A stretch of DNA of 57,097 bases, taken from positions 1-57,097 of the forward strand of contig CASFPO010000049.1 of assembly GCA_949296805.1 (NCBI GenBank), given 5' to 3'. This DNA comes from an uncultured Bacillota bacterium. Lineage in GTDB: Bacteria > Bacillota > Clostridia > Christensenellales > UBA1242. Position 1 is the first letter of the stretch; each line of letters starts with the position of its first letter. Positions 39,841 to 44,779 of this stretch are shown one piece after another. The notes under the pieces are model-generated. The model searched no databases. It was given only the letters and a program-made list of their open reading frames with translations, and was not told the origin of the DNA. The position numbers were made by a program, and so were the translations under genes.

Positions 39841-40046
39841 TAAAATTTTTTGATGTAACTATCTGAGTTATACAAAGCTTATATAGCAAAAATCTCTTGA
39901 TAAAATTTTTTGCTTGACAGAAAGATCGCCTAGCCACAATGGGCAATTAATTGTTGGCATGACAATAATAAACTTTGATCGCAAAACAAATGGTCTTTTA
40001 ACCTTTCTATTTTTAATTCTAAGCAAATAATTTTTATGCAAAACAT

Positions 40047-40074
40047 AAAAAGCAGATACCCTTATCTGCTTTTT
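40047..40074 (-). terminator. Terminator of tRNA-Asn, now separated from it
   Basis: AAAAAGCAGATA, loop CCCT, TATCTGCTTTTT: a 12-bp stem. It lies six bases outside the left attachment repeat. In the empty site it would directly follow the tRNA-Asn 3' end on the minus strand. Confidence 0.75.
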
Positions 40075-40079
40075 AATAC

Positions 40080-40089
40080 TGGCTCCCCA
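40080..40089. repeat. Left attachment site core
   Basis: TGGCTCCCCA, identical to the 3' end of tRNA-Asn (TGGGGAGCCA on the minus strand). Reading frame on the plus strand: (T)GGC TCC CCA, in phase with the downstream frame. Confidence 0.75.
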
Positions 40090-40308
40090 CAAATCTTTGA
40101 CCCAATAAAAATACTTGAAATTACTAAATTTGCAAAGTTAAATCGTGGCAAGTATATTGCACAAAAATATAAAAGTCAAGAAATTCTCACAAAACAACAA
40201 AAACTTTGGGGCATTTTTACAATTCGCTATGTTTATGATAAAAGAAAATTTTGTGAATTGAGATTTGTAAAGCACTCTTCTTATGAAAAGGCGGTGCAAT
40301 ATGACTAG
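40090..40308 (+). other. Detached C-terminal segment of the recombinase frame
   Basis: An open frame without its own convincing start: 72 codons from CAA at 40090 to TAG at 40306-40308, beginning QIFDPIKILEITKFAK and ending SYEKAVQYD. The only ATG in frame (40036) lies outside the element in front of a terminator. The phase across GGC TCC CCA is the same as in the recombinase gene at the other end, so in the circular form this is the recombinase C-terminus (658 residues in total). Its stop overlaps the start of the next gene (ATGACTAG), which suggests coupling. The segment is basic and Tyr/Lys-rich. Confidence 0.7.
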
Positions 40309-40963
40309 ACAACAATATATTTGGAGACAGCAAGAAAAACACAAAGAATATGAAAACATAAACGCATTGGTTCACCAAATGGTAAAGTTAAGTGGATTTG
40401 TGTTAGAGCCTATCATTTTAGGTGAAGTCTTTTTTAGATATTTACAACAACAAAAAGCAAGTGATAAGAATAAACAGACGGCACGCAATATGTCAAAAGT
40501 TTTTTCTATACTCTGTCAATATAACTTTATCAATGGAAAACTTTATTACAATGAAAATGGTTTTTCAGTTTCTCCAAGTGTTTGGCAAAAACATTGTATA
40601 GGTAGGGACGCACTTGATACAAGCATAAAAAAACTTAAAGCTATGAATTTGATTGATTTTGATAACTCTTGCTATTACGGCAAAAAAGAAAGACGAAAAA
40701 GATTTTACACAGTCAATAGAAACGGACTTGAATATCTTTTACACCAAGCAGAGAAAATCAAAGGCGAAGAACACGAGCAAGATTTACAACTTTACGAAGA
40801 TTTTTTAGACTACACAAATCGCAAAGACTTTGACACTGCTTACCAAGAAGAACAAGCATTCAAAGAATATAAAGCACAAAGAAAATGCGGTGCTATCAAA
40901 GTTGCACCAAAAGAAATAAAAAGTTTTCAAAAAAATTTAGAGAATTTAGAAGAAATCATATAG
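40301..40963 (+). CDS. Winged-helix DNA-binding protein, possible replication or control protein
   Basis: The 220 residues contain a winged-helix-like core: PSVWQKHCIGRDALDTSIKK would be the recognition part and the following LIDFDNSCYYGKKERRKRFYTVNRNG the wing. A charged C-terminal region ends the protein. The ATG at 40301 has AAGGCGGTG before it and overlaps the stop of the preceding frame. An ATG six codons earlier lacks a ribosome site. Its place as the first full gene of the element suggests a replication initiator-like or regulatory role; no specific family is recognised. Confidence 0.6.
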   Translation: MTRQQYIWRQQEKHKEYENINALVHQMVKLSGFVLEPIILGEVFFRYLQQQKASDKNKQTARNMSKVFSILCQYNFINGKLYYNENGFSVSPSVWQKHCIGRDALDTSIKKLKAMNLIDFDNSCYYGKKERRKRFYTVNRNGLEYLLHQAEKIKGEEHEQDLQLYEDFLDYTNRKDFDTAYQEEQAFKEYKAQRKCGAIKVAPKEIKSFQKNLENLEEII

Positions 40964-41079
40964 TTGCCGAAATGAATCCCGTATACTTTAATACTAAAGG
41001 GTACGATTGCTTGATGAAAGCCGAAGAAAAGAAGTTGAAAAGTTGTAAAAGAAATTAGTTGAAGAATAGAGAAAGTCAG

Positions 41080-41107
41080 CCACCCCGCAGGTTTTGGGTG
41101 GTTTTTT
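41080..41107 (+). terminator. Rho-independent terminator
   Basis: CCACCC, 10-base loop, GGGTGG and six T residues. It closes the first unit of the element. Between 40964 and this site no further gene is seen. Confidence 0.75.
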
Positions 41108-41297
41108 CTATATGTTATCTATATGGTGTCTATATATTGTGGGTATATAGTTTTATCAATTTTAACTCCCAAAATACATACAAAACACAAAGTTTTATCC
41201 TTTTATACATAAGTGTATGCAACTATTGCCGTTATACAGATTTTATAAGTTTTACGAAATGCTTGTAAATTTTTTCATTTTGTGCTATCATAAAGTT

Positions 41298-41389
41298 GCG
41301 ACACAATTGAATAGTTTTACCCAAAGAGTGAAAGATTTTTTTGCTATTCATACAAATGCTTCCACACCCTTTGGGTTCAATTGTGTCGC
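41298..41389 (+). ncRNA. Long structured stem-loop upstream of the GIY-YIG gene
   Basis: GCGACACAATTGA (41298-41310) pairs with TCAATTGTGTCGC (41377-41389), and ACCCAAAG (41319-41326) pairs with CTTTGGGT (41369-41376) further in: a bulged hairpin of about 92 bases. The paired arms are perfect, which implies selection or a recombination site. Whether it acts as RNA or DNA cannot be told. Confidence 0.5.
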
Positions 41390-41420
41390 AGCAATTGGAA
41401 GGTTTGTTTTTGGATAGACT

Positions 41421-41442
41421 GTGCCTTCCGTTTGGGAGGCAC
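41421..41442 (+). promoter_or_regulatory. Hairpin that covers the ribosome site or attenuates
   Basis: GTGCCTTCC, loop GTTT, GGGAGGCAC (one wobble pair), then TTTTATTTT. The GGGAGG that could serve the ATG at 41452 is inside the stem. It can be read as a terminator (attenuator) or as translational control. Confidence 0.5.
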
Positions 41443-41451
41443 TTTTATTTT

Positions 41452-42105
41452 ATGGAAAAGAAAGGTTTTGTTTATATTTTAACCAACCCTTGTTTCAAAG
41501 AAAATTGGGTAAAGATTGGACAAACAGACAATTTAGATAGAAGAATTTGGGAACTTTCTCAAGCAACAGGAATTCCCTTGCCTTTTGAAATGTATGCAGT
41601 ATTAAAAACTACTAAATATAAACAAGCAGAATATATGATACATAGACTTATTGGTAAACTTGCACCCGATAAACGCATAAACCCAAAACGAGAATTTTTC
41701 AACATTGAACCAGAAGATGCGGTTTCAATTATGAAAGATATTGCAAGCCTTATTGATGACGCTGAAATTATTTACAATGAAAAAATAACTATTGAAAAAA
41801 CATCAAAACAACACGGAAAGAAAGCCCCACCAAAAACATTTTATAGTATGGGCATAAAAAATGGAGACATAATAGAATTTACACTTGACCCACAATATAA
41901 GGCAACGGTGTGTGGAGAGCGAACTGTAATGTTTGAAAACAAAGAATACTTTTTAACCCCACTTGGAATTATACTCTTGCAAAGAGTTGGACATAGCGAA
42001 GAACAAGCAAGGCAACTTGGAAGCGGTTTTGGAGTTTTCAAATTTGATAATCAAGACAACAACCTTTATGACCGTTGGGAAAGGTTAAACGGAAATAAAT
42101 ATTAA
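41452..42105 (+). CDS. GIY-YIG (T5orf172/MUG113-type) nuclease-like protein with RAMA-like C-terminus
   Basis: The 217 residues have an N-terminal T5orf172-type GIY-YIG domain: FVYILTNPC, then WVKIGQTDNLDRRIWELS and a conserved EREFF-like patch (KREFFNIEP). The C-terminal 75 residues (NGDIIEFTLDPQYKATVCGE, then ENKEYFLTPLG) resemble the RAMA domain, predicted to sense methylated DNA. A nuclease reading modified DNA fits element maintenance or interference with rivals. I chose the ATG at 41452 because the domain starts there; the open frame before it is only the hairpin region. Confidence 0.7.
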   Translation: MEKKGFVYILTNPCFKENWVKIGQTDNLDRRIWELSQATGIPLPFEMYAVLKTTKYKQAEYMIHRLIGKLAPDKRINPKREFFNIEPEDAVSIMKDIASLIDDAEIIYNEKITIEKTSKQHGKKAPPKTFYSMGIKNGDIIEFTLDPQYKATVCGERTVMFENKEYFLTPLGIILLQRVGHSEEQARQLGSGFGVFKFDNQDNNLYDRWERLNGNKY

Positions 42106-42295
42106 GCAATTTACCGCCTGCCCTCGTTGTTTATCGATTGCTTTCTTGTTTTATCTCAACTCAATAAAATATACCACAAAGAGAAAAAGACACTGCCAAG
42201 CAAAGATTTAAGAAAACAAAAAAGTTTAGGTTGCAAGGCTTTACAGCCGTATTTTGCTTTAATATAATCAAACTAAATTAAAAGGAGAAAAGTTT

Positions 42296-42511
42296 ATGAA
42301 ATGGATAAAATGGCTTAATCTCGCTCAAACAATTTTACTAGTTATTGTTGGCATTTTACTTGTTAATTTTAAGACTATCACAGAAGCGGGAATGATAGTA
42401 TTTGAAATATTCGTTATATTATCTCTTGTTTTGTCTATTGTAATGCTTGTTATGCACTTTAAGAAAAACAAAAAGCAAAAGAAAGAAGAAAAACCGAGCG
42501 AAGAAAAATAG
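42296..42511 (+). CDS. Small membrane protein with two helices
   Basis: The 71 residues hold two hydrophobic segments (about 9-24 and 32-53) and a highly charged Lys/Glu tail. AAAGGAG before the ATG is a strong ribosome site. The size and shape fit phage or plasmid membrane peptides (holin-like, superinfection or toxin), but nothing decides between these. It lies alone between the GIY-YIG gene and the small-RNA region. Confidence 0.65.
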   Translation: MKWIKWLNLAQTILLVIVGILLVNFKTITEAGMIVFEIFVILSLVLSIVMLVMHFKKNKKQKKEEKPSEEK

Positions 42512-42664
42512 ATTACACTAAACCCACTATTTATATATTATAGTGTGCGGGAAACCACACATATTTTGAAAAGTTTAGGTCAAATCTCTTTACATTGCTC
42601 AATGCCTATTCTATACTTTATTGTGGGGAACAAAAGATATTTCAAAATTTTTTTAGAAAAAGTA

Positions 42665-42693
42665 TTGACTTACGATAAAGTATGTGATAATAT
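42665..42693 (+). promoter_or_regulatory. Promoter inside the element
   Basis: TTGACT (42665-42670), 17-base spacer, TAATAT (42688-42693). No start codon with a ribosome site follows before the terminator at 42766-42809. Confidence 0.6.
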
Positions 42694-42699
42694 ACTGGC

Positions 42700-42809
42700 A
42701 TACGCTTGTGGAACAAAATGTAAAAAACATTTTGGATACCGCTTTATGACAGGTTTTATTATAAAGGCATCGTTAAAACCAAAAAATTGGTTTTTGCGGT
42801 GTCTTTTTT
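42700..42809 (+). ncRNA. Candidate small RNA
   Basis: Start placed about seven bases after the -10 box. The RNA of about 110 bases would contain hairpin CAAAATGT/ACATTTTG (42714-42734) and end in a terminator (outer stem GGCATCG/CGGTGTC with wobble pairs, inner AAAACC/GGTTTT, then TTTTTT). The 94-codon frame through this region has no ribosome site and is probably spurious. Confidence 0.5.
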
Positions 42810-42841
42810 GTTTCTCCGCAAAGACTTAAAAGGAGGTTAAA

Positions 42842-42970
42842 GTGAAAAGAAAAACACAAGTTATTATTATTGAAAATCACAATCACAAAGAAATTGGAAT
42901 TCCATTTTATCAATTTATTTTAAAAACATTACAAAATCAAAAAGGAGAAACAAAAAATGAAGAAAAATAG
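42842..42970 (+). CDS. 42-residue protein overlapping the recombinase start
   Basis: GTG start at 42842 with AAAGGAGG five bases upstream. The product begins MKRKTQVIIIENHNHKEIG and ends GETKNEEK. It is basic, with an amphipathic IPFYQFILKTL helix. Its stop lies 14 bases inside the recombinase gene (ATG at 42957), so the two are probably translationally coupled. Role unknown; small basic proteins in this position can act as directionality factors. Confidence 0.65.
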   Translation: MKRKTQVIIIENHNHKEIGIPFYQFILKTLQNQKGETKNEEK

Positions 42971-44768
42971 AATATTAAACGATAAACAAAAATATGTTGT
43001 GGGTTATTGCCGTTTTAGTAGTGATAATCAAGGAATAGAAAGCATAGAAGGACAACAAAAGGAAATTTTAAGATATGTAGAGAATAATGGTTTGATACTT
43101 TTAAAATGGTATGTTGATGAAGCAAAAACAGGAACATCAGCAAATAGGAAATCATTTTTACAAATGATTGAAGATGGTAAAAAACAAGAATTTGGACAAG
43201 TCCTTGTTTATCAATTAGATAGATTTGCAAGAGATGAAGAAGATAAGGTTATCCATTTTGTAAGTTTAAGAAAAAATGGTATTAAAGTAGTTTCTGTAAC
43301 TGAACATTTTGACGACACGCCAGAAGGAAAGCTAATGGAAGCAGTTGTGAGTGGTATCGCCGCATATTATTCAAGAGATTTGGCGAGAAAGACACTGCGA
43401 GGTATGAAACTTAATGCTGAAAAAGGATTTAGTAATGGTGGCACAACTCCATATGGTTATAAACTTGTCCCAAGACTTGACGAAAACAATAAACCTATGT
43501 TCCACAAAAAAGGTCACGCGTTACACAATATAGCAATCAACCCAGAACAAGCAGAAGCAGTTAAAATTATGTTTGATATGACAATAAAAGGTTATACAAG
43601 GCACGAAATTATAGAGCAACTAACCAAACAAGGTTTTAGAAAAGAAAACGGCGAAAAGATAACAGGAACTTTTATTGACCATATATTAAGAAATGAAAGA
43701 TATACGGGTGAATATTGGTATTACTATAACAAAAAGAACATAAATTTTAACCCAGAAAGTGATGATTATAGAATTCGTATCACAAAAGGTTTTGACCCTA
43801 TTATTTCAAAAGAAGATTTTAATACTGTTCAAAAAATCTTGGAAACAAGAAGACACAAAACACCAACAAATGCACAAGAAGATTACTTATTAACTGGCAA
43901 AATTATATGTGGAGAATGTGGTTCAAATTATAACGGAATGCGATGTAAAAGACACGGAAGACCCTATGTTTATTATCAATGCACTGACCAACATAGTTAT
44001 AAAAACGGACAAAAAAGAGAAAAATATTGCCATAATAACACAATTCGTAGAGATGAGATTGAAAAACTTGTTATAGATAAAATTAAAGAAATTGTCTTTA
44101 CTGATAATCTAGTTGAACAAGTTTTAGATAACTATAACAAATTTGCCATTGAAGAAAGTAAAAATAATTCTATGATTGAAATGCTTGAAAACAAAATAAA
44201 AGACTATGATAATCAAATGAAAAACATTACTAATGCTATCGGTCAAAATACTGCAAGTTATTCAATACAAGTGCTACTTGATAGATTACACGAACTTGAA
44301 CAAAATAAAAAACAAACAACAGAATTACTTGAAAAAGAAACGATTGGAAATAATTCTTTAACCACAACCGTAAAAGAAATATTAAAAGTTTATCAGAAAG
44401 CTCAAAAAATTCTTGATGGAGATGATATTCCAGCAAAACGAGCTATTATAAACAACTTTCTTAATAAAGTAGTTGTCAAACAGGATACAGTTGAAGTTTA
44501 CCTTAATTTATTGCCTTTAACTTGCTCTGCTTTCCTTGATATTGACATATTAAAAAATAACTTATTTATGGGAGATTTAAGTGTTGGAGATTGGGATTTT
44601 GCTGAATACCCAGATTACCCAATTACAACATTAAAACAATATAGGGAGTATAAAGAAAAACCCAGCACAAGATTTATTCCATCTTTTACTGGGCTAAATA
44701 CAATTGGCTCCCCAGGTAGGATTCGAACCTACGGCCTATCGGTTAACAGCCGAGCGCTCCACCACTGA
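42957..44768 (+). CDS. Large serine recombinase (integrase of the element)
   Basis: Catalyses integration and excision of the element. N-terminal resolvase domain: YCRFSSDNQ with nucleophile Ser21 and QLDRFARDEED. Recombinase domain from about residue 170 (PYGYKLVP, PEQAEAVKIMFDMTIKGYTR). Zinc ribbon with CGECG and a later CTDQHS...YCHNN (about 315-365). Coiled coil (about 400-455). The last 17 residues (GRIRTYGLSVNSRALHH) are encoded by the tRNA-Asn gene read backwards, so the gene crosses the attachment site at residues 584-586. In the excised circle the frame continues instead into the segment at 40090. AAGGAG precedes the ATG. Confidence 0.92.
   Translation: MKKNRILNDKQKYVVGYCRFSSDNQGIESIEGQQKEILRYVENNGLILLKWYVDEAKTGTSANRKSFLQMIEDGKKQEFGQVLVYQLDRFARDEEDKVIHFVSLRKNGIKVVSVTEHFDDTPEGKLMEAVVSGIAAYYSRDLARKTLRGMKLNAEKGFSNGGTTPYGYKLVPRLDENNKPMFHKKGHALHNIAINPEQAEAVKIMFDMTIKGYTRHEIIEQLTKQGFRKENGEKITGTFIDHILRNERYTGEYWYYYNKKNINFNPESDDYRIRITKGFDPIISKEDFNTVQKILETRRHKTPTNAQEDYLLTGKIICGECGSNYNGMRCKRHGRPYVYYQCTDQHSYKNGQKREKYCHNNTIRRDEIEKLVIDKIKEIVFTDNLVEQVLDNYNKFAIEESKNNSMIEMLENKIKDYDNQMKNITNAIGQNTASYSIQVLLDRLHELEQNKKQTTELLEKETIGNNSLTTTVKEILKVYQKAQKILDGDDIPAKRAIINNFLNKVVVKQDTVEVYLNLLPLTCSAFLDIDILKNNLFMGDLSVGDWDFAEYPDYPITTLKQYREYKEKPSTRFIPSFTGLNTIGSPGRIRTYGLSVNSRALHH
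44705..44714. repeat. Right attachment site core in tRNA-Asn
   Basis: TGGCTCCCCA: the CCA end, discriminator and first acceptor bases of tRNA-Asn. It contains the codons GGC TCC CCA of the recombinase (residues 584-586). Confidence 0.75.
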
Positions 44769-44779
44769 GCTACTGGGGA
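44705..44779 (-). tRNA. tRNA-Asn (anticodon GUU)
   Basis: Minus strand from 44779: acceptor TCCCCAG pairs with CTGGGGA, D-arm GCTCAGTGGTGGAGC, anticodon stem around CTGTTAA (anticodon GTT), T-arm GTAGGTTCGAATCCTAC, and CCA encoded. The gene is intact after integration but has lost its nearby terminator, which lies 4.6 kb away at 40047. Its transcript would therefore run antisense into the recombinase gene. Confidence 0.95.

Follow-up and report, generated by a model that had tools for sequence, protein, structure and literature searches.

Contig CASFPO010000049.1 (assembly GCA_949296805.1) of an uncultured Bacillota bacterium, a stretch of 57,097 nucleotides that we call the window, carries a 4.6-kb element inserted in the 3' end of a tRNA-Asn gene. 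The attachment site of this element lies inside the gene of its own large serine recombinase (LSR). We propose, with a probability of about 0.75, that it belongs to a family of tRNA-targeting elements that hold attP, the attachment site of the circular form, within the LSR gene, so that integration and excision swap the C-terminal tail of the recombinase, and that this tail favours integration. That the C-terminus depends on the state of the element is shown here at the level of sequence.

The attachment core TGGCTCCCCA occurs in exactly two copies in the window, the left one (attL) at 40080–40089 and the right one (attR) at 44705–44714 on the plus strand; none of 100 shuffles contained such a pair, and 0.03 matches are expected. 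In the integrated form the LSR is a plus-strand frame of 603 codons (42957–44768), in which GGC TCC CCA of the right copy reads as codons 584–586 (Gly-Ser-Pro). Joining 44714 to 40090, as in a circle, yields a single frame of 658 codons from the recombinase ATG, made up of 586 recombinase codons and 72 from 40090–40305. Its stop (40306–40308) overlaps the ATG at 40301 of the downstream gene. The tail (40090–40308, plus strand, stop included), which would form the C-terminal end of the circle-form recombinase, is start-less here. The integrated recombinase instead ends in 17 residues and a stop (44715–44768) read from antisense tRNA-Asn. According to ARAGORN this target gene, tRNA-Asn (gtt), occupies 44705–44779 of the minus strand and is intact, so that the right core copy is the 3' end of the tRNA in antisense. 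A preliminary description had proposed the in-phase reading of the repeat in the recombinase and in an open frame at the far end, the division into 586 and 72 codons, the overlap of the tail stop with the next gene start and the antisense-tRNA ending. The repeat count and frame check, the in silico join and the translation bear out all of these.

Does the same arrangement occur in relatives? The data are assemblies, mostly from metagenomes. A recombinase search of 297 family genomes (cut-off E 1e-60) gave a match in 52, the window's own counted. The C-termini of 32 recombinase loci agree among members of a subgroup up to one point and then diverge, and in several of 24 scanned loci a tRNA-Asn, -Arg, -Glu or -Leu gene adjoins the recombinase on the opposite strand. 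Used as a tblastn query, the 72-residue tail matched the far end of relatives' elements (E 8e-20 to 3e-7) with identities of 54% (locus L038), 53% (L039, on a contig shared with L040), 51% (L034), 46% (L037), 40% (L042) and 39% (L041). Profile searches located the tail in 26 genomes among 297 of the family, 8 among 396 of the order and 2 among 391 of the class, counts that each include the window's own; both class-level genomes, that one and one other, are inside the order. Comparison with known domains gave no Pfam match at E 0.1, no NCBIfam match and a single chance-level PHROG match (E 0.087), and phage and plasmid records held nothing at E 0.01. Viral contigs gave no match to the 658-residue query; a profile retrieved 80 LSR loci from them, none above 36% identity, and in a later scan none of these had the tail. 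As a side observation, the tail of L066 (1501–1713) is apparently recombinant, being L037-like over most of its length and window-like at its end.

Recombinase and tail are in phase at the shared core in all 18 non-redundant two-ended elements (window included), and in 10 of them the script's longest shared word, or one equally long, was the core; the 18 reduce to about nine lineages once near-copies are grouped, by our own grouping. The joined tails are homologous and 57–73 codons long, and the joined core encodes Gly-x-Pro in 17 of the 18. Replacement ends in the integrated forms range from 1 to 77 residues, and at the level of sequence integration thus removes a conserved C-terminal domain and puts 1–77 unrelated residues in its place. 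Apart from L117, the joined elements all have an intact tail-less recombinase part; L117, whose N-terminal frame is broken, was counted in the phase table and left out of the tree described below. The shuffles together with the 18 joins in phase rule out a chance repeat or a chance frame. The proposals of an attachment site within the recombinase gene, with a C-terminus swapped upon excision, and of a circle that would couple recombinase, tail and winged-helix gene into one unit are supported. Tail stop and downstream start overlap in 5 of the 18 elements (window, L074, L075, L082, L083) and are 64–72 bases apart in 7; in the other 6 no open reading frame (ORF) of 80 codons starts with an ATG within 150 bases of the tail. 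The recombinases of L074 and L075 differ in their N-terminal parts and are nearly identical in their C-terminal parts, which suggests a chimera.

A partial natural copy of the joined gene exists as well. At L269 (genome G033, contig 96) a single open frame of 323 codons runs from the recombinase zinc ribbon through the core into the tail, and this locus shows the joined gene independently of in silico joining. Downstream follow a frame of 71 codons and another that, by an H-x-H motif seen by eye, resembles a rolling-circle Rep. An earlier scan of 234 sources had found no tail in the same frame as a recombinase. Could the tail be a separate gene that shares the frame by chance? In the window an ATG at 40036 does open the tail frame, though it is located in host DNA, and no start-codon position is conserved among the 18 tails. 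With 18 of 18 elements in phase this reading is extremely improbable, and the fusion at L269 and the lack of a conserved start led us to reject it. The ratio of non-synonymous to synonymous substitution rates (dN/dS) of the tail is 0.12–0.56 in 30 of the 136 pairs among 17 tails (those with identity above 45% and more than 5 differences), values that are rough since synonymous change is near saturation in many pairs. These ratios indicate that the tail evolves under purifying selection.

The element also has an empty counterpart. A query of 135 bases from both host flanks (E 1e-5) matched 94 of 112 genus genomes, most matches covering the tRNA only. Matches that start at or before query base 12 and run across the join came from G206, G220, G288, G239, G280, G187 and G193; G261 also crosses the join, but its site is occupied. 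Among L235–L245, loci taken from this search and checked for the recombinase, one is present in L243 only, as a distant LSR of about 25% identity. Hence L236 (G220) and L238 (G288), which have none, are empty sites, and in both a terminator hairpin stands directly behind tRNA-Asn. Insertion at the 3' end of an intact tRNA-Asn and an empty site in congeners place the element among tRNA-targeting integrative elements, and occupied and empty sites together imply past insertion. The preliminary description had named as speaking against it the lack of any circular junction or empty site in related genomes, together with recombinase homologues that all stop before residue 580 and have no tail match; instead, the tail recurs in the 26 family genomes, congeners hold unoccupied sites and one contiguous frame was found. 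In congeners a 133-bp unit accompanies tRNA-Asn, with 3.2 copies in L242 (1545–1963) and fewer in L238, L240 and L243. The unit combines the degenerate 5' part of a tRNA-Asn, whose anticodon arm has an insert of about 55 bases, with an inverted copy of this arm.

Across the family the core is a tRNA 3' end, read either in antisense (tRNA-Asn, tRNA-Glu) or in sense (tRNA-Met, -Ile, -His, -Leu, -Glu), an assignment that covers the elements other than L087, L090 and L093. In elements of the sense type the tRNA end is followed immediately by the tail, and the recombinase extends into host DNA. The arrangement persists over at least six tRNA types and both orientations. Beside L079 and L087/L090/L093 the tRNA is broken or unrecognised. 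At the right end of L051 and L052 the target tRNA is interrupted by an insert near the anticodon loop, and ARAGORN misses it.

In a tree of 43 recombinases the 17 tail-bearing rows all fall into one 25-row clade (support 100/100), and at least two changes of target polarity are needed. The left end was marked as missing for seven of the tree rows; one of these, L091, has a partial tail at the contig edge, and for another, L080, the genome (G226) has a tail on a different contig. Within the wider LSR group this clade is set apart by the conserved domain beyond the attachment site. The element itself seems to have moved between genera: G121, from another genus, carries the window's element (100% over 798 bp at the right end and 99.2% over 364 bp at the left), which indicates recent transfer. 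The G121 copy adjoins a different tRNA-Asn allele, which places the crossover within the first seven core bases, TGGCTCC (40080–40086 in the left copy). When the window is compared with L252, the element is identical over 338 bp in two genera, yet a stretch of about 5 bases that directly follows the core (window 40090–40103) is different, so that the attP arm itself differs.

How might such an arrangement work? By sequence, the joined form that the circle would have encodes a recombinase of about 600–670 residues whose conserved C-terminal domain of 57–73 residues follows a linker, and the linker codons, Gly-x-Pro in 17 of 18 elements, are the attachment core itself. Insertion in a tRNA 3' end detaches the domain and leaves a tail-less enzyme with an arbitrary short end. 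We favour the view that the tail is a domain needed for, or strongly favouring, integration (attP × attB). If it serves integration, insertion would stop the integration-competent enzyme and uncouple the recombinase from the downstream genes, and circularisation would restore both the full-length enzyme and the coupling. The tail-less form may be an excision enzyme or an off state, and the data are compatible with either. Several observations weigh against this reading as a whole. No circle was observed in the assemblies studied, and in 8 of the 18 elements the core was chosen by eye with knowledge of the tRNA ends, which is a bias. The structure model of the tail is poor (predicted local distance difference test, pLDDT, 63), so that no function is readable from the fold. 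L089 belongs to the tail clade and has 10 kb available upstream in which the tail was not found. L269, which is without the N-terminal half of the recombinase, is a remnant, and so is L070, where the recombinase C-part adjoins the tail in a different frame.

A plainer explanation is that the core drifted into the gene and that the tail stabilises or folds the protein, its loss being of no note. Attachment sites at the 3' end of LSR genes are indeed common in the wider group: of the 125 complete LSR genes in two collection scans, 29 have a 3' end that overlaps an antisense tRNA (17 of 58 genome loci and 12 of 67 viral loci, L101 and L164 appearing to be a single sequence), and the tail clade holds 10 of the 17 genome loci. 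The window's genome itself provides such a case in a second LSR element, L053 (contig 43; 934 and 4141), which lies at tRNA-Leu and has an 18-bp repeat; its attachment site is at the very end of the LSR gene, and its ends join to only 6 residues. This passive arrangement is nonetheless doubtful for the tail clade, whose tail has been conserved even though nearly every copy seen has it detached. The C-terminal position would also suit a signal for degradation or targeting that only the circular form carries, comparable to integration-dependent immunity. With 50–70 residues conserved and the last residues varying between lineages, we consider this very unlikely.

More specific readings differ in what they assign to the resident enzyme. 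A tentative one places the direction switch across attP: the tail would drive integration in the circle and insertion would produce an excision-only or silent enzyme, with no separate directionality factor. If so, one stretch of DNA would be protein linker and attachment core, and on its other strand tRNA end and tRNA terminator. The narrower claim that the tailed enzyme integrates and the tail-less one excises fits the state-dependent C-terminus. It also fits published fusions of integrases with recombination directionality factors, in which C-terminal additions to the phiC31 and Bxb1 serine integrases change and can set direction (PMC5737554). It seems rather improbable in this strict form, as the published added domain promotes excision (PMC5737554) whereas here the domain belongs to the circle, so that the sign would be opposite. 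Alternatively, the tail-less enzyme may be inactive both ways, as in suicidal integrases, so that exit would depend on a full-length enzyme supplied in trans by a related circle. In the archaeal parallel, as described in PMC8371274, insertion splits the integrase into inactive or much weaker fragments and related intact enzymes can excise such elements. The arbitrary replacement ends of 1–77 residues agree with a resident form that requires no function. The tail-less recombinase part stays intact in the joined elements, L117 excepted, which speaks against such a dead end, but the gene is also used by circles and the point is not decisive. We regard this as possible, but less than probable.

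The window's LSR has a Resolvase catalytic domain (PF00239, E 4.6e-28) followed by Recombinase (PF07508, E 1.9e-18) and zinc-ribbon (PF13408, E 8.5e-13) domains, as have the large serine integrases known from phages and mobile elements (phrog_95 type; A118 integrase, PDB 4kis). Unlike those integrases, it has attP within its coding frame, followed by a conserved domain, and its element inserts at a tRNA 3' end. In the integration-dependent immunity of mycobacteriophages attP lies in the repressor gene and insertion swaps the repressor C-terminus. A regulatory protein is altered at its C-terminus in both systems, but here attP is in the recombinase gene and not in a repressor gene. In some tyrosine integrases attP overlaps the 3' end of int and only a few last residues change; the position at the gene end is alike, whereas here a domain of 57–73 residues is exchanged.

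A close likeness is to the archaeal suicidal tyrosine integrases (SSV, pTN3, pT26-2), in which attP lies in the integrase gene, insertion splits the gene and only the circle holds it intact; the host site is a tRNA gene in the cases described (PMC8371274). Those are tyrosine enzymes with the catalytic domain in the detached C-terminal part (PMC8371274). The split by an attP within the gene is found here too, but with serine recombinase domains only and no tyrosine fold, and the serine enzyme retains the catalytic, DNA-binding and coiled-coil parts, a C-terminal domain being all that it loses. The titles and abstract openings searched in open-licence PubMed Central (PMC) literature name no serine integrase whose coding frame contains attP, which supports its absence weakly; with the same weak support, the tail-swap logic appears there only for the archaeal tyrosine enzymes. 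The family thus looks like a bacterial serine counterpart of suicidal integrases, with a conserved domain that exists only when the element is excised. Natural matched enzyme forms with and without this domain make direction setting in serine integrases testable and could be of use in genome engineering. The tail swap also accounts for the antisense-tRNA peptides that end many such recombinase frames, and it calls for caution, as recombinase genes taken from integrated copies may be without a functional part.

An insertion of the antisense type separates the tRNA from its own terminator. In the window the displaced tRNA-Asn terminator was recovered by pattern scan in the left host flank (minus strand, 40046–40075; a 13-pair stem with a T-run), and a similar hairpin stands directly after tRNA-Asn in element-free congeners. 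All 15 antisense right ends examined, L053 among them, have a 7–15-pair stem followed by a T-run in the 90 bases behind the tRNA, bases that are recombinase codons on the opposite strand. Single-base shuffles gave an equally good hairpin in no more than 5% of cases, and in none of 200 for 12 of the 15 ends, figures from a finder written after seeing the sequences and with single-base shuffling as the sole control. The window's hairpin lies at approximately 44656–44696 on the tRNA (minus) strand; a standard scan, for loops of 3–8 only, did not list it. One hairpin is common to 6 of the 15 ends, those of L112 and L080 differ by a paired change, and that of L078 has a 24-base stretch in common with the host terminator of the L236 empty site, as if captured from a host. 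For the antisense-type ends, which the test covered, the recombinase coding end is thus predicted to give the interrupted tRNA a substitute terminator.

Between the cores the element carries further plus-strand genes ahead of the LSR. The winged-helix-like gene whose start overlaps the tail stop (40301–40963) has homologues behind the tail in several relatives. Its structure model (pLDDT 78) matches winged-helix entries in the PDB weakly (best E 8.3e-3), and for a role as replication initiator there were only weak, regulator-like matches. A T5orf172-domain gene of GIY-YIG-like type (41452–42105; PF10544, E 6.4e-14) is cargo, and a small hydrophobic ORF at 42296–42511 was listed from its translation and a domain search. 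In elements of different lineages, similar cargo ORFs of about 380–410 residues have the motif H-S-[DN]-F-L-A-[FW]-L in common, recognised by eye in L082 (4372–5613), L087 (6201–7340) and L088 (6201–7340).

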